A DNA stretch of 20,293 nucleotides from a virus: positions 1-20,293 of IMG/VR virus record IMGVR_UViG_3300020457_000140; one strand, given 5' to 3'. This document shows, one piece after another, positions 12,465 through 18,653 of this stretch; the stretch's first letter is position 1, and each line of letters begins with the position of its first letter. The notes beneath the pieces were generated by a model. It was not told where the DNA came from and ran no database searches. It worked only from the letters and a program-made list of their open reading frames with translations. Made by a program: the position numbers and the translations under genes.

Positions 12465-12611
12465 TTTTCACCTCTAAATAAAAATTAATTGATTCCCTAG
12501 TAATGGGGTAGTTCGAACCCACAAAGGGGTTCTCACTTATACCATGCCGTTTTTATTTGTAAAGGTATTTATTAAGTGCAGGTTATGAGCCTAGTAACTC
12601 CACTAACTGCT

Positions 12612-12698
12612 AAGTCATTGATTTCATTGATAAGCCACCTAACCTGAAGGTCAGAGGTTCAAATCCTCTCCCCGCAACCAAGTTACTGATTTTATTGA
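12612..12698. repeat. Imperfect 19-bp direct repeats flanking the attP core
   Basis: Positions 12612-12630 and 12680-12698 match at 16 of 19 bases (pattern AAGTnAnTGATTTnATTGA). They bracket the tRNA-like core symmetrically, as expected for binding sites of integrase or a helper protein. Confidence 0.6.
12640..12680 (+). other. attP core: 3' half of an initiator tRNA(fMet) gene
   Basis: This 41-bp segment reads from just after the anticodon to the CCA end of a tRNA: TAACCTGAAGGTC, T-stem AGAGG (12653-12657), T-loop TTCAAAT, CCTCT (12665-12669), acceptor strand CCCCGCA, discriminator A and CCA (12678-12680). The ending CCCCGCAACCA and the CCTGAAGGTC segment are those of bacterial initiator tRNAs. 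The 5' half is missing, so it is not a tRNA gene but the crossover region copied from the host attB. Integration would rebuild an intact tRNA(fMet). It lies next to the integrase gene. Confidence 0.85.
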
Positions 12699-14168: not shown

Positions 14169-14342
14169 AGTTTAGTGGTATAGGGGAGTTAGGTGTTGTG
14201 GTAGTCATTATAAACCACCAACCAAGGATGGTTTTCATTTCCAAAAAATATGAAATGATTACTCAACATCTAATTCTGTAATATTTTCATTTTTTCTCCT
14301 TATTCCCTCAGAGTAACCTGCATTTACTCTGGGGGTTTTTTT
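14169..14342 (+). ncRNA. Candidate small RNA upstream of integrase
   Basis: A very good plus-strand terminator has no plus-strand gene in front of it, while a plausible promoter lies about 140 bp upstream. The interval holds two small hairpins (GTGGT/ACCAC near 14199-14218, AACCA/TGGTT just after) and only a 17-codon reading frame (14228-14281). The simplest reading is a non-coding RNA of about 170 nt or a tiny peptide message, divergent from integrase. No known RNA family is recognised. Confidence 0.35.
14305..14342 (+). terminator. Strong intrinsic terminator, plus strand
   Basis: A 12-bp stem, CCCTCAGAGTAA (14305-14316) with TTACTCTGGGGG (14324-14335) including one G.T pair, encloses a 7-nt loop and is followed by seven T residues (14336-14342). 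The T-run exists only for plus-strand transcription. Confidence 0.9.
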
Positions 14343-14368
14343 ATACCTGCACGGCAGATAAAAAATGT

Positions 14369-14587
14369 CTAAGGAGTAATCTCCAGTAAAACGCCACTTG
14401 ACCAAGCGTTGTCGGAGTCATCGTCTGGATGTGTACCTTTCGGTAAAGCAATTATACTTCCGTCTAGGTTAACAATTTGATATTTTCTATTTTGTTCTTC
14501 TGCTAAACACCACGCCATTTCTATGGCATCAAGAAGTTGATTGCAGTTGCTCGATTTAAATTTAATTATGTTTAGTTTTTTGTTCAT
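14369..14587 (-). CDS. Hypothetical 72-aa protein
   Basis: This protein is not recognised. It has a basic start (MNKKLNIIKFKSS), a helix (CNQLLDAIEMAWCLAEEQNRK), a beta-like stretch (YQIVNLDGSIIALPKG) and an acidic tail segment (HPDDDSDNAW). Size and fold pattern would suit a small DNA-binding or regulatory protein but no clear helix-turn-helix is visible. The start is ATG 14587 behind GTGAGGTGA. It stands alone, upstream of the integrase on the same strand, and faces the plus-strand terminator. Its position, between integration module and accessory block, is where an excisionase or regulator could sit. Confidence 0.65.
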   Translation of the reverse strand: MNKKLNIIKFKSSNCNQLLDAIEMAWCLAEEQNRKYQIVNLDGSIIALPKGTHPDDDSDNAWSSGVLLEITP

Positions 14588-14892
14588 TTCACCTCACATT
14601 ATTAATGGTATAGAATTGGTAGCACTTAATGAATCAAATTGCAACAACTATGGAAAAAATACTTCCTGCACGGCAGACTATTAATGCATGAATCCAAATA
14701 GAATCAAACACTTAGTTATATAAAATAATTATAAATATATAAGAACAAAAATAGAACAAAAATTTTTGAATTATTTATTTAAATAAAGAAAAATGTAATA
14801 AAAACAATAATTTACTAGGTGTTTTTTATTGCGAATCAAACGCCAATTTATTAAATTGCAATTTCAATCAATTTTTAATAAATAGGTGAAAA
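14588..14892. other. AT-rich intergenic region between divergent genes
   Basis: These 305 bases separate the minus-strand 72-aa gene from the plus-strand accessory block. They hold a CCTGCACGGCAGA motif (14665-14677), a tandem AGAACAAAAAT pair (about 14742-14763) and long AT tracts. The last 29 bases are the conserved leader of the next gene. Promoters for the accessory block probably lie here, but none matches the consensus well enough to name. Confidence 0.5.
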
Positions 14893-14895
14893 ATG
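14864..14895 (+). promoter_or_regulatory. Conserved translation leader, copy 1
   Basis: TCAATCAATTTTTAATAAAT followed by AGGTGAAAAATG. The same AT-rich block plus AGGTGA ribosome binding site precedes three other genes of this region (16420, 16967, 18076). AGGTGA pairs with the 3' end of 16S rRNA (anti-Shine-Dalgarno), so it fixes the start at ATG 14893. Confidence 0.65.
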
Positions 14896-15648
14896 AAAAA
14901 TACATATATTATTTATGAAGGTGATTCTTGTTTAGATAAAAAACCAATTGTTGCCATTTTAACTTTAACATCAAACAATGAAAAACTTACTGGAGGTGAA
15001 AAAATAGAATTGTGCCAGTTGTGGTTTTTAAAAAAAGATATAGATCCATTGACGGCTAGTCGTACAGGTGAAGATTTTTCAATCTGTGGCAATTGCAAAT
15101 TAAGAGGGGTTGCTAATTTAAATAAAAAATCAGGGGTGGCAGATTCTAGGGGGTGTTATGTTCTTTTATATATGCGACCATTGAGTCTATATAAAGCAAT
15201 TCCTGAATTACCTAGAATATCAATGTCAAAAGCAAAACAATTAGTAAAAGGTAAATTTTTGAGAGTCGGTGCTTATGGTGACTCTGGTTCAGTACCAAAT
15301 AATTATATTAATCCTTTAATTAATGTATCAAAAAAATTTACTGGATATAGCCACCAGTGGGAATCCTTTACTAATAAGAATCTAATGGCATCTTGTGAAA
15401 CATTAGAGCAAAGAAAAATTGCAAAGAAAAAAGGTTATAGAACATTTAGAGTCTTAACAGATAAATCCGAAATATCCGAAAATGAAATTCTTTGTCCAGC
15501 CAGCAAAGAATCCTTGAAACAATCTAATTGTTTTAAATGTGGTTTATGCAATGGTAATAAATCAAATAGTTTAAAAGATATTGCAATTGTGAGTCATGGT
15601 GGCATCAAAAACAATCTCAATAATATAATTCGAGAATTAAGAAATTGA
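14893..15648 (+). CDS. DUF7227-like cysteine-rich protein
   Basis: This 251-aa protein resembles a family common in phages and plasmids that I know as DUF7227 (from memory, unchecked). Shared features are IVAILTLTSNNEKLTG near the start; LWFLKKDIDPLTASRTGED then CGNCKLRG (about 71-78); GCYVLLYMRPLSLYKAI; LRVGAYGDSGSVP; TGYSHQW; MASCETLEQRKIAKKKGYRTFRV; ILCPASKE; CFKCGLCNG near the end; and IAIVSHG. The two cysteine clusters could bind zinc or an Fe-S cluster. No biochemical function is known to me. It opens the plus-strand accessory block, starts behind the conserved AGGTGA leader, and is more AT-rich than the replication genes. Confidence 0.7.
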   Translation: MKNTYIIYEGDSCLDKKPIVAILTLTSNNEKLTGGEKIELCQLWFLKKDIDPLTASRTGEDFSICGNCKLRGVANLNKKSGVADSRGCYVLLYMRPLSLYKAIPELPRISMSKAKQLVKGKFLRVGAYGDSGSVPNNYINPLINVSKKFTGYSHQWESFTNKNLMASCETLEQRKIAKKKGYRTFRVLTDKSEISENEILCPASKESLKQSNCFKCGLCNGNKSNSLKDIAIVSHGGIKNNLNNIIRELRN

Positions 15649-15757
15649 GTAAAATTTATTATATTTTAGGTTTTATTTGTTTTTGGTGTTTCATAATAGA
15701 ATTATTATTTAATTAATGAAAATTTAGGGGTTTTTTAAAAAATTGCCCCGAAATAAA

Positions 15758-15827
15758 GCTCATACAGTACCCACAAATGCTTTTTGAATAGTGACACAAG
15801 CAAAAATAATTAAGGTACTGTATGAGC
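15758..15827. repeat. Perfect 14-bp inverted repeat
   Basis: GCTCATACAGTACC (15758-15771) and GGTACTGTATGAGC (15814-15827) flank 42 nt. As RNA this is a stable stem with a large loop; as DNA it could bind a dimeric protein. No T-run follows. Confidence 0.7.
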
Positions 15828-15993
15828 ATATTTTATGCCATAGAGTTAAAATATTAATTAAGTGTACTATTGATTCTTTAAATATGACACTTAAAAAAAG
15901 TGTATTAAATTATAATTGTTTAATATCAATACTTTATAACTTTTTTTGTCAAAAATGGGGATTCTAGATATTTTTATATTATAATAAGACTAT

Positions 15994-16032
15994 GAGATAA
16001 TTGTTTTTCCTTTCTGATTATCTCTAGAAAGG
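15994..16032 (+). promoter_or_regulatory. Overlapping alternative hairpins before an AGGTG site
   Basis: GAGATAAT (15994-16001) pairs with ATTATCTC (16017-16024). Alternatively CCTTTCT (16009-16015) pairs with AGAAAGG (16026-16032). The two overlap and cannot form together, and the second borders GGTAGGTG, a ribosome-binding-like sequence followed at 16053 by a seven-codon frame (MTHFCFV). This is the layout of a riboregulator or attenuator. Ligand and target are unknown. Confidence 0.4.
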
Positions 16033-16065
16033 TAGGTGAAAAAATATAATTTATGACTCATTTCT

Positions 16066-16126
16066 GTTTTGTTTAAATTAATAGGCGTTTTGTTTTGTCA
16101 TTCTCAAATACGCCTATTAACAAAAC
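16066..16126. other. Long hairpin
   Basis: TTAATAGGCG (16078-16087) pairs with CGCCTATTAA (16111-16120). GTTTTG (16066-16071) and CAAAAC (16121-16126) extend the stem past a 6-nt bulge (TTTAAA). No T-run follows on either strand, so a simple terminator is unlikely. Confidence 0.6.
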
Positions 16127-16345
16127 AAATAAAAAGACTTAACTATATAATTAACTATTGTTTATTTAAGTAATTAATTATATATTTAATTCAAGAATTA
16201 GTTGTTTTGATTCTTCGGTAGGTTTAACGATAGTTTTTTAATTTAGAAAAAACCCCTACTGTAAATAAAAGGCTCTTTGACATAAAGCGATAATATTAAA
16301 AATAACTTAATACGCTCTTTGTAGGTTTTAGAAAAATCTACAACT

Positions 16346-16370
16346 GTAGTGATTTTATAGGCTAGATTTA
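16346..16370 (+). repeat. Cassette A, left arm (25 bp)
   Basis: It is an exact inverted copy of 18021-18045. The core reads TGATTTTATAGGCTAGATTT. Arms enclose 1,650 nt that contain cassette B and the DUF932-like gene. Confidence 0.85.
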
Positions 16371-16383
16371 ACAATCAATATTT

Positions 16384-16411
16384 GAGTCTAGCTTTTTATA
16401 AATTGCCTGAG
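16384..16411 (+). repeat. Cassette B, left arm (28 bp)
   Basis: It starts GAGTCTAGCTTTTTATAAAT and ends TGCCTGAG. It is an inverted copy of 16935-16962 with one difference, which in plus-strand RNA is a G.U pair, so all 28 positions can pair. Confidence 0.85.
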
Positions 16412-16419
16412 TTTAAAAA

Positions 16420-16455
16420 AATCAATCAATTTTTAAATATAGGTGATAATATGAA
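16420..16455 (+). promoter_or_regulatory. Conserved translation leader, copy 2 (36-bp exact repeat)
   Basis: Identical over 36 bases to 18076-18111, including AATATAGGTGATAATATGAA. It supplies the AGGTGA site and start codon for the gene at 16451. Confidence 0.8.
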
Positions 16456-16690
16456 TATTTCTAAAAAATCAATTAATGCAAAATTAAAAATTATTTCTGC
16501 TAAAAATATCCATAATAAAAATAAAAGATTATGGTTAAGACAAAGAGAAATAAAAAACAAATATTTATCAGAAATTTTAACTTGTAAAAATTTAGGTGTT
16601 TCTAGTCGTTTTATTGTTTCAAATTTAGCAAAACATTATAATACAAATAATAAAATAATTAGAAAAATTTTAACTTTTTCAGTGGTGTAA
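16451..16690 (+). CDS. Hypothetical basic protein, possible DNA-binding
   Basis: A 79-aa, very Lys/Asn/Ile-rich protein. The segment GVSSRFIVSNLAKHYNTNNKIIRKIL near the C-terminus could form a helix-turn-helix of the type used by small regulators, though it gives no clear family match. The frame is open from 16382, but the conserved AGGTGATAATATG leader fixes the start at ATG 16451; upstream residues would be the translation of the repeat arm. It is the first gene inside cassette B and is followed after 2 nt by the next gene. Regulator of the block is a guess. Confidence 0.6.
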   Translation: MNISKKSINAKLKIISAKNIHNKNKRLWLRQREIKNKYLSEILTCKNLGVSSRFIVSNLAKHYNTNNKIIRKILTFSVV

Positions 16691-16692
16691 TT

Positions 16693-16926
16693 ATGTTATT
16701 AGATATTTTTGAAGTTTTTAAAGATGATGTTAACGCAACGCCAAAAGAAGTAATTGAGTCATTTTTTGAATACACATTAAAAGAAATACATAATAATTAT
16801 ATGTTTATGAGTGTTGAAAAGAAAAACGGCAATATGCATTTACTCTTTAAACATTGTGAAACTAGGGAATATATAAGAATTCCATTTAAAAAAGAATTCT
16901 TTTTAAATAATCCCACAATTAATTAA
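16693..16926 (+). CDS. Hypothetical 77-aa protein
   Basis: This protein is not recognised. It has an acidic helical N-terminal half (LLDIFEVFKDDVN, TPKEVIESFFEYTLKEIHNN) and a beta-like C-terminal half (NMHLLFKHCETREYIRIPF). The start is ATG 16693, 2 nt after the stop of the previous gene, with only a weak ribosome binding site, so translation is probably coupled. Second and last gene inside cassette B; its stop lies 8 nt before the right arm. Confidence 0.6.
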   Translation: MLLDIFEVFKDDVNATPKEVIESFFEYTLKEIHNNYMFMSVEKKNGNMHLLFKHCETREYIRIPFKKEFFLNNPTIN

Positions 16927-16934
16927 GTGAATAT

Positions 16935-16962
16935 CTCAGGCAATTTATAAAAGGCTAGACTC
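16935..16962 (+). repeat. Cassette B, right arm (28 bp)
   Basis: Inverted partner of 16384-16411, starting CTCAGGCAATTTATAAAAGG. It lies between the second gene of cassette B and the leader of the DUF932-like gene. Confidence 0.85.
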
Positions 16963-16966
16963 TTTC

Positions 16967-17001
16967 AATTCAATCAATTTTTAAAAAATAGGTGAAAAAT
17001 G
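16967..17001 (+). promoter_or_regulatory. Conserved translation leader, copy 3
   Basis: TTCAATCAATTTTTAAAAAA followed by TAGGTGAAAAATG. Same leader type as at 14864, 16420 and 18076; fixes the start of the DUF932-like gene at 16999. Confidence 0.65.
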
Positions 17002-18009
17002 TTAGATATAGTTAATATAAATAATTATCCAATTAATGAAGTTAAAGACAATTTTAACGCTTTAGAATTAACAACATTAAATTTTGGAGTCGCATTAAGA
17101 CCAATTACTTTTCAATGTCAATTTCAAGGTGAAATACCTTTTTATGATAACGAAATTCCAAAAGAACTTGGAAGACTCGTTTTAAAAACTAACCCTGATA
17201 ATGGTTTTTTATTAAGGGATTATAAAGAATGTAATTATGATCAAATAATAAAAAATTCTTGTTTAGGTATAGTTGGTTTAAGATATAAACCTATGTTAAA
17301 TGGGGTTATCTTTAATCTATTAAAAAAGTGTTTACTTTCACAAATACCAATTGAAAATTTACAAGATGCCGTTTTAACTGAAACTTCTGCAAAAAATGGG
17401 GCGTTTAGCCGTTTTGAGATTATGTTTCCAAAAATGCAAAATGTAATTGATCAAAAAGGTAGGTATGACAATACAAGATTAAATTTTCGAATTGCCGTAA
17501 ATAATACTTTTGACGGCTCTGGAAGACTCGTTATTGATGCTGGTTTTTTTGATCAAGTTTGTAGCAATGGTTTAAAAATCGGTAGTTATGAAACTGATAC
17601 AAGTAAACACACTGGTAATTTAACTGAAGAAAAAATTGAATATTTTATTTCTGAGCAAATTGAATCTTCTAAAGATAAAATTGAGCAGATTCAAAAATGG
17701 TCAAATATTCCAGTAAATGGTTTTGAGATTAAAGAAAAAATATTTGAAAAATTCTTTTCTGAAACACAAGCAAAGAAAATGCATCAGCAATTTAAGAATG
17801 AGTGTTTAGATCGTGGAAAGACTCTATGGTCGGTCGTTTCAACTCTTACTTACTGGTCTTCATCTGATAATGTAAGAAATAACGGAGTCGAATTTAGTGT
17901 ACGAAATACTGGACTCGATAATGTAGCTAGTACGCTAGACTCTAGACAAAAGATAGTTGATAAGATTCTTAAATCAAAAGAATTTCAAGAATTATCTTTA
18001 GTCGCATAA
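16999..18009 (+). CDS. DUF932-like protein
   Basis: This 336-aa protein resembles DUF932, a family found on plasmids, phages and integrative elements, often near anti-restriction or conjugation genes; its molecular role is not established. The recognisable core runs from RYDNTRLNFRIAVNNTFDG to GRLVIDAGFFDQVCSNGLKIG (about 154-194), where the family shows an aromatic/RVxNSHDG-like strand and a cysteine before a short helix. The second half is helical and charged (about 210-270) and the C-terminus carries TLWSVVSTLTYWSS. It is the main gene of cassette A. GANTC sites, the CcrM target of alphaproteobacteria, are frequent in the gene. Homology is judged by eye. Confidence 0.65.
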   Translation: MLDIVNINNYPINEVKDNFNALELTTLNFGVALRPITFQCQFQGEIPFYDNEIPKELGRLVLKTNPDNGFLLRDYKECNYDQIIKNSCLGIVGLRYKPMLNGVIFNLLKKCLLSQIPIENLQDAVLTETSAKNGAFSRFEIMFPKMQNVIDQKGRYDNTRLNFRIAVNNTFDGSGRLVIDAGFFDQVCSNGLKIGSYETDTSKHTGNLTEEKIEYFISEQIESSKDKIEQIQKWSNIPVNGFEIKEKIFEKFFSETQAKKMHQQFKNECLDRGKTLWSVVSTLTYWSSSDNVRNNGVEFSVRNTGLDNVASTLDSRQKIVDKILKSKEFQELSLVA

Positions 18010-18020
18010 ATAAATAAAAA

Positions 18021-18045
18021 TAAATCTAGCCTATAAAATCACTAC
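18021..18045 (+). repeat. Cassette A, right arm (25 bp)
   Basis: Perfect inverted partner of 16346-16370. It follows the stop of the DUF932-like gene by 11 nt and is separated by one base from the left arm of cassette C. Confidence 0.85.
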
Positions 18046-18046
18046 G

Positions 18047-18071
18047 AAAATAAATTAAAAGGGAGTCTTTT
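18047..18071 (+). repeat. Cassette C, left arm (25 bp)
   Basis: Contains AAAAGGGAGTCTTTT; inverted partner of 18667-18691 with two mismatches in 25. The central 11 bp (GGGAGTCTTTT) match perfectly. Confidence 0.75.
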
Positions 18072-18075
18072 ATTT

Positions 18076-18111
18076 AATCAATCAATTTTTAAATATAGGT
18101 GATAATATGAA
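18076..18111 (+). promoter_or_regulatory. Conserved translation leader, copy 4 (36-bp exact repeat)
   Basis: Exact repeat of 16420-16455, including the ribosome binding site AGGTGA and the start codon at 18107. Confidence 0.8.
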
Positions 18112-18232
18112 ACAACATTTTATAAATATCTTTTGGTTTATTGCTATCACTGGCAATTTATCCTTAATCATTTTTTTTACTTTATGGATTCTATTAGATT
18201 ATCCAAAAATGACTATCGGTCTAGGGGGTTAA
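18107..18232 (+). CDS. 41-aa single-pass membrane protein
   Basis: A short frame, ATG 18107 to TAA 18230-18232, with the best start signal of the region (the 36-bp repeated leader). The product is MKQHFINIFW, then a hydrophobic run FIAITGNLSLIIFFTLWILL, then a polar tail DYPKMTIGLGG: one membrane helix with a basic, probably cytoplasmic N-terminus. It is first in cassette C and is followed by the next ATG after 3 nt. Function is unknown; phage peptides of this type include exclusion proteins, antiholins and membrane toxins, none of which can be chosen from the sequence. Confidence 0.65.
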   Translation: MKQHFINIFWFIAITGNLSLIIFFTLWILLDYPKMTIGLGG

Positions 18233-18235
18233 ATA

Positions 18236-18472
18236 ATGAAACAAGCAATAAATTTTAAAAGAGAAATATTAGATTCTGGTATCACATTAAGACAACAAAA
18301 ATTTCTTAATCAAATTGCAGAGTCTGATTTAACTGTAAAACGATTAATCAATAGACTAGGTGACTCACTAAATAATAAAACAATAGCGAGTTATTTAGTT
18401 AAATATGTAATTGGTCGTAAAAATATAATTCAAGTATTAGATAAAAAAGGAGTCAAAATTGAAAATATTTAA
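18236..18472 (+). CDS. Hypothetical 78-aa protein
   Basis: This protein is not recognised. It is basic and helical, with LRQQKFLNQIAESDLTVKRL and LNNKTIASYLVKYVIG suggesting a three- or four-helix bundle, possibly DNA-binding. ATG 18236 lies 3 nt after the 41-aa gene, with GGGGG upstream. The last codons overlap the start of the next gene by 14 nt. Middle gene of cassette C. Confidence 0.6.
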   Translation: MKQAINFKREILDSGITLRQQKFLNQIAESDLTVKRLINRLGDSLNNKTIASYLVKYVIGRKNIIQVLDKKGVKIENI

Positions 18473-18653
18473 ATTATTAAAATTACAAGAAACGATTGAA
18501 GATAAAAACAATCGAAAAATTCCAGGTGATTTAAAGCAATTAAATAAACTATTTTATTATTCTGAATCTGGTAATAAAAAGGTAAAACTTTCAGAAATGG
18601 AATTAAACCATTTTATCAGAATAGGAATTAAAAAGGGTTTATTTAGTTCTTAA
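18459..18653 (+). CDS. Hypothetical 64-aa protein, TTG start
   Basis: This protein is not recognised. It is basic and helical (KLLKLQETIEDKNNRK, LSEMELNHFIRIGIKKGL). The start is a TTG at 18459 with a very good AAGGAG site 6 nt upstream, which supports the rare start codon. It overlaps the previous gene and is the last gene of cassette C; its stop lies 13 nt before the right arm. Confidence 0.58.
   Translation: MKIFKLLKLQETIEDKNNRKIPGDLKQLNKLFYYSESGNKKVKLSEMELNHFIRIGIKKGLFSS

Follow-up and report, generated by a model that had tools for sequence, protein, structure and literature searches.

A conserved candidate microprotein gene and a hairpin-rich, possibly regulatory spacer in an HMO-2011-type marine phage

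What is carried by the 802 nt (positions 15649-16450) that separate the genes p2554 and s79 in the 20,293-base IMG/VR record analysed here (the window), and why do they hold so many hairpins? An earlier note, made from the letters alone, had flagged this stretch and raised the question of whether it makes an RNA, controls its neighbours or serves as an origin. Our analysis points to a composite, in which a candidate microprotein gene is followed by a regulatory spacer that has expanded and holds hairpin leaders, and not to one large RNA or a demonstrated origin. We give this reading as a whole about an even chance.

Results

The helicase, integrase and DUF932 proteins place the phage among the HMO-2011-type marine phages. 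Its nearest isolates are CRP-212, CRP-3 and CRP-235, with protein identities of 31-56% and the same gene order; against CRP-212 the helicase is 56% and the integrase 48% identical with order conserved, as expected of a member of this type. By its sequence the window is thus a fragment of a CRP-3/CRP-212-like phage. With that group (PMC9038755) it shares the order of integrase, primase, helicase and DNA polymerase, the divergent small genes with DUF932, and a microprotein before DUF932, whereas it differs in being AT-rich, in having p2554, a 735-nt spacer and s79-s77, and in matching none of the isolates compared. Integrase and replication genes run left in the window; p2554, s79, s77, DUF932 and small genes run right through a region of about 21-32% GC, and the isolates carry their divergent small genes with DUF932 at the corresponding record end.

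Upstream of the stretch lies p2554 (14893-15648, +), a Cys-rich protein of phrog_2554 (function unknown; PHROG E 2e-50) that is 37-47% identical in relatives. The conserved neighbour downstream is the DUF932 gene (16999-18009, +; Pfam PF06067), 30-35% identical in relatives. Between them, s79 (16451-16690, +) encodes a very basic, predicted helical 79-aa protein and s77 (16693-16926, +) a 77-aa protein, both orphans absent from relatives for which Pfam and PHROG searches gave no family match and nothing usable. A single-sequence AF2 model of s79 (pLDDT 87) has three helices, one long and two short, of which the last two look helix-turn-helix-like by eye. Comparisons were made with about 220 loci fetched by integrase, p2554 and DUF932 alignments. 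Single-sequence searches for close relatives with p2554, DUF932 and integrase gave no match, and a search of GTDB genomes by integrase and helicase found no close prophage. One contig (L009) is 99.9% identical and reaches no further than about 10.1 kb into the window, short of the stretch, and another (L010), with 71% helicase identity, ends beside the integrase, also before it.

The stretch had been described as free of genes. Six-frame translation compared with relatives gave a sole coherent match that corrects this: the first 72 nt code for a conserved, predicted membrane microprotein of 23 aa (15645-15716, +), LSKIYYILGFICFWCFIIELLFN with its first residue read as M, whose TTG start overlaps the p2554 stop (TTGA). 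By tblastn it matches in-frame micro-ORFs of relatives, and a motif search of related phages recovered about 30 distinct versions, each some 22-25 aa long, for example MAGLYQLIGFIVFWYFVVWAIS in L029 and MAGIYQIIGFFVFWGFVFWLLA in CRP-212; one of the 30, in L160, looks like a chance motif match. The motif YxxIGFxxFW occurs 46 times in 1.7 Mb and never in shuffles. Differences by codon position across 15 close pairs, which share members and are not independent, number 33/15/67, a pattern that argues for constraint at the protein level. In the 17 loci with both genes the micro-ORF lies upstream of DUF932 on the same strand, except in L100; most lie within 400 nt of DUF932, and in L183 the two overlap by 3 nt. 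The window copy shows the family features throughout (a length within 22-25 aa, the motif, a place just upstream of DUF932 and a start at or near the preceding stop). Judged by these comparisons, 15645-15716 is a membrane microprotein gene conserved across the phage group: dozens of HMO-2011-type phage contigs have it in this position, and the records of CRP-212, CRP-3 and CRP-235 carry no annotation for it. Because the family was found by similarity and motif, its expression is something we infer; translation could be coupled to that of p2554. Apart from two weak TTG frames, no other ORF of at least 12 codons with a plausible Shine-Dalgarno (SD) sequence was found in the stretch.

The remainder, 15717-16450, is an AT-rich, lineage-specific non-coding spacer. 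Conservation in relatives, which had been proposed as a check on function, failed here: blastn and nhmmer found no homologue in about 220 related loci, at the distances available, and a distant DNA search of 50,697 phages gave no match. The only matches under E 0.05 were two IMG/VR matches to the leader pattern, which lie inside coding DNA of T4-like phage contigs and were taken as chance. In relatives the gap between microprotein and DUF932 is usually 68-380 nt, with a few longer, and in the loci with p2554, microprotein and DUF932 side by side (L029, L032, L037) it is 100-140 nt; the window has 735 nt and two orphan genes in this place.

The excess of hairpins, by contrast with the absence of genes, was borne out. 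The 802 nt passed the folding comparison that the earlier note had asked for, folding far better than dinucleotide shuffles on both strands, with a minimum free energy of -179 against -134 +/- 7 on the + strand (z -6.4) and -153 against -113 +/- 6 on the - strand (z -6.7). Perfect local inverted repeats, counted at several thresholds, were likewise in excess (11 observed against 2.9 expected, with a maximum of 6 in 200 shuffles; at another threshold 4 against 0.38). Sliding 200-nt windows located the signal at 15700-15899 (z -7.0/-4.0) and 16000-16199 (z -5.1/-4.9), the remainder being mostly unremarkable; 15649-15757 and 15828-16061 taken alone did not fold significantly better than shuffles. 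Two hairpins account for most of this, and with both excised the rest of the stretch drops to z about -3. H1 (15758-15827, +) is a perfect 14-bp hairpin, GCTCATACAGTACC/GGTACTGTATGAGC, with arms at 15758 and 15814 and a 42-nt loop containing an inner stem. It is unusually GC-rich for its surroundings, and its score was reached in 0 of 300 shuffles. H5 (16078-16120, +), a perfect 11-bp hairpin, TTAATAGGCGT/ACGCCTATTAA, with arms at 16078 and 16110 and a further flanking stem, was equalled by a pair anywhere in the region in 13 of 300. Of the "at least seven" inverted repeats noted before, these two stand out as strong and the other five or so are modest or ordinary for DNA of 78% AT. Neither an SD nor an ORF follows H1 or H5, and a search for terminator-like sites in the stretch found none. 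As candidate integron attC sites both were rejected, R-box sequences being absent by eye. Rfam searches of the stretch at gathering and loose thresholds gave chance matches only, and no relevant tRNA or tandem repeat was found.

The 12-bp pair said to enclose the hairpins exists, as E (TAGGGGTTTTTT, 15725-15736, +) and E' (AAAAAACCCCTA, 16247-16258, +), and is marginal: 4 of 300 region shuffles reach it, and when the whole island is shuffled many do. In an RNA with exactly the ends 15725 and 16258 the two arms pair with a probability of about 1; in 15649-16450 the value is 0.01, since local pairing displaces the pair in the longer transcript.

Much stronger long-range pairs involve the 3' end of the spacer. 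A (16346-16370, +) is perfectly complementary over 25 nt to A' (18021-18045, +), after the DUF932 gene, and this best inverted repeat of the island scores 32 against a shuffle maximum of 19. B (16384-16411, +) pairs with B' (16935-16962, +), between s77 and DUF932, over a perfect 18-nt core (16394-16411/16935-16952) followed by 9 nt, making 28 nt complementary at all but one position; together with A, B also forms a local hairpin closed by GGCTAGA/TCTAGC. Both pairs exceed every island shuffle, and their order is nested: A B [s79 s77] B' [DUF932] A'. They had been missed because their second arms lie beyond the interval first described. They may be RNA duplexes closing transcript units or traces of a DNA cassette history. 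A separate 12-bp inverted repeat (18060-18071/18667-18678), within shuffle range, brackets the small genes at 18107-18653.

The same 3' end, 16346-16450, is probably the leader of s79. Its last part (16397-16450, +) holds TATAAA, a hairpin of TTTAAAAA and TTTTTAAA, and AGGTGA before the ATG at 16451, and includes the start-associated sequence TCAATCAATTTTTAAATATAGGTGATAATATG, which is repeated exactly at 18076-18106. Comparison of repeats found further copies before p2554 (14864-14895, +) and DUF932 (16967-17001, +), so that TCAATCAATTTTTAAA(n)AGGTGA precedes four genes: p2554, s79, DUF932 and the frame at 18107. The copies at 14864, 16420, 16967 and 18076 are identical or nearly so, with a weaker one at 12492(-), and all keep their orientation and position before starts. 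A hairpin upstream of the copy is present for s79 (A/B and the TTTAAAAA hairpin); the leaders 16927-16998 and 18010-18106 show no folding advantage over shuffles.

A second module of this layout lies in mid-spacer (15980-16040, +), with TATAAT at 15980-15985, the 8-bp hairpin H4 at 15994-16001/16017-16024 and the SD AGGTGA at 16034-16039, and is an orphan since no ORF follows. We searched both strands of the 20 kb for a -10-like box, a gap of 4-14 nt, a perfect stem of at least 7 and an SD within 22 nt, and found three modules: the one before s79, the one at 15980-16040 and one at 14345 (-) before a very short frame. Two of the three are therefore in this spacer, one of them directly before s79. 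Such a module appeared in 9 of 400 region shuffles, a 2% that is optimistic given that the layout test was built after H4 had been seen. Promoter-like sites in the stretch showed no excess over chance.

Relatives carry a comparable layout before the same genes. In L029, L032, L033, L036-L038, L041 and L106 a stem with a GUGGU or UGGU loop is followed by ACTAGC(A/T)AAnGAGG and a start codon, before p2554 and/or DUF932, and in L029 and L032 a promoter, TTGCAT-17-TAATCT, read by eye, stands just upstream of the hairpin. This hairpin with its ACTAGCnAAnGAGG leader before early genes is found for instance at L029:3143-3240(-), L032:3699-3790(-), L036:60-90(-) and L106:1000-1040(+). Across eight distinct versions 94% of cells are paired, with a clear loss when the alignment is slid, and the stems show 11 double-change cells against 3.3 in shuffles around an invariant loop. 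Stem formation was one of the grounds on which the set was chosen, so that the 94% is inflated and the kind of change less affected. The alignment shows that the stem covaries in relatives; a search for a name for this hairpin found none. The GUGGU stem with ACTAG and SD is absent from the window leaders, so window and relatives share the layout and not the letters, an analogy and not a homology. With this qualification the idea of a long riboregulatory leader for the cassette genes survives in part: a hairpin leader of s79 at the 3' end, the 15980-16040 module and a covarying hairpin upstream of the same genes in relatives speak for leaders, and the stretch is not one long leader.

The nearest layout described is the SAS/ESAS of Cluster K mycobacteriophages, a repeated sequence of unknown function before start codons, with inverted repeats upstream of about half the copies (PMC3203893). 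In both cases non-structural genes have an asymmetric repeat immediately ahead of their start codons, with nearly all copies oriented like the gene; some copies follow closely on an inverted repeat, and the intergenic gaps are unusually long. The SAS has a 13-bp consensus, GGGATAGGAGCCC, its inverted repeats are alike between sites and there is little support for mRNA hairpins (PMC3203893). The window leaders do not match that consensus: their sequence, TCAATCAATTTTTAAA...AGGTGA, is unrelated, and by this difference the window is not a member. They differ further in having only four or five copies and another host group, and relatives of the window phage have covarying stems with a constant loop.

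Discussion

The preferred reading is that the spacer would be a lineage-specific expansion of the region where relatives keep the promoter, 5'-UTR hairpin and start-associated leader for their next early gene. The activities that we infer most likely reside in the transcript, where 5' stem-loops placed shortly after a -10 box could shield mRNA ends or govern ribosome access ahead of the AGGTGA Shine-Dalgarno. The 15980-16040 module may then be a leader that no longer leads to a gene, and H1 and H5 may be end-forming or processing stems of a p2554-microprotein transcript. A/A' and B/B' could close the s79-s77 and DUF932 units by 25-28 bp duplexes, long enough for RNase III-type processing. Against the leader reading, equal z values on both strands fit DNA-level repeats as well as RNA. 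If correct, an abundant marine group would share a layout of early-gene control made of promoter, 5' hairpin (its loop constant, its stem covarying) and start-associated leader, a simple system in which to look for a common signal of translation or mRNA stability.

Those equal strands also suit another explanation, a mutational by-product: an AT-rich, fast-changing host-takeover region would have acquired its perfect inverted repeats and a decayed gene relic through template switching and small inverted duplications, and its hairpins would have no selected function. The absence of the region from relatives, arms that are perfect and so far show no covariation, intergenic pieces copied in inverted form over long distances and a leader lacking its gene at 15980 are all consistent with such an origin of the repeats. 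Useless DNA, however, tends to be lost from phage genomes, no leader copy departs from its orientation or from its place ahead of a start, and H1, with its local GC-richness, exceeds all shuffles; we therefore regard the by-product account as a serious but rather unlikely one.

The nested repeats raise the further idea of a mobile cassette scar, with s79-s77 and neighbours inserted between inverted repeats and the hairpins being empty cassette sites. The flanking of s79-s77, absent from relatives, by B/B', and of DUF932 by B'/A', with A and B together upstream as an "empty" form, would fit. So would the Cluster O phage YungJamal, in which inverted repeats of about 24 bp flank an accessory gene absent from relatives (PMC4351075), except that there relatives show a single repeat copy at the gene junction. 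We consider a scar improbable: no transposase, invertase or target-site duplication was seen, DUF932 is an old resident conserved in place, and the case is built on a single genome.

A replication origin or single-strand initiation site in this AT-rich divergence region is a little harder still to credit. Hairpins are common at origins, the GC content of 22% is among the lowest of the window and a turn in GC skew and gene direction lies nearby (about 14500-14900), but AT-richness together with divergent genes is circumstantial support. The skew turn tracks the direction of the genes at a distance of about 1 kb, no iterons, tandem or phased direct repeats were found in the stretch, and nothing equivalent is seen in isolates that share the gene order, the 753-nt spacer of CRP-235 being unstructured.

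Least convincing, and very unlikely in our view, is a single large structured RNA spanning some 530 nt (15725-16258), with about seven hairpins closed by E/E' in the manner of GOLLD and ROOL (PMC12286853), for which the z of -6.4, the near-certain E/E' pairing with exactly these ends, the length class and the multi-hairpin look speak, and which the marginal closing stem, its replacement by local pairs in a longer transcript, large parts that fold no better than chance, z values lacking strand asymmetry, absence from relatives, no covariation evidence, no Rfam match even at a loose threshold and no match to GOLLD, ROOL or OLE family covariance models in the stretch all oppose. That it would be a new phage RNA of this kind made during infection, with no described relative, is the most doubtful proposal of all, and the earlier suggestion of a structured RNA made in quantity found no support in conservation, promoter excess or strand bias.

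A few features near the integrase gene may be recorded separately. An apparent 3' half of a tRNA gene (GAGGTTCAAATCCTCTCCCCGCAACCA; 12636-12680, +) adjoins it and is a likely attP core; CATAACCTG recurs at about 12590. The palindrome CTGCCGTGCAGG occurs twice, at 14340-14360 and 14660-14680, in two intergenic gaps beside the integrase. Upstream of the integrase, 14270-14350 (-) carries a frame of 6 codons together with a -10-like box, an 8-bp hairpin and AAGGAG. The integrase of L028 is likewise preceded by a comparable short frame, and the two may be leader peptides.
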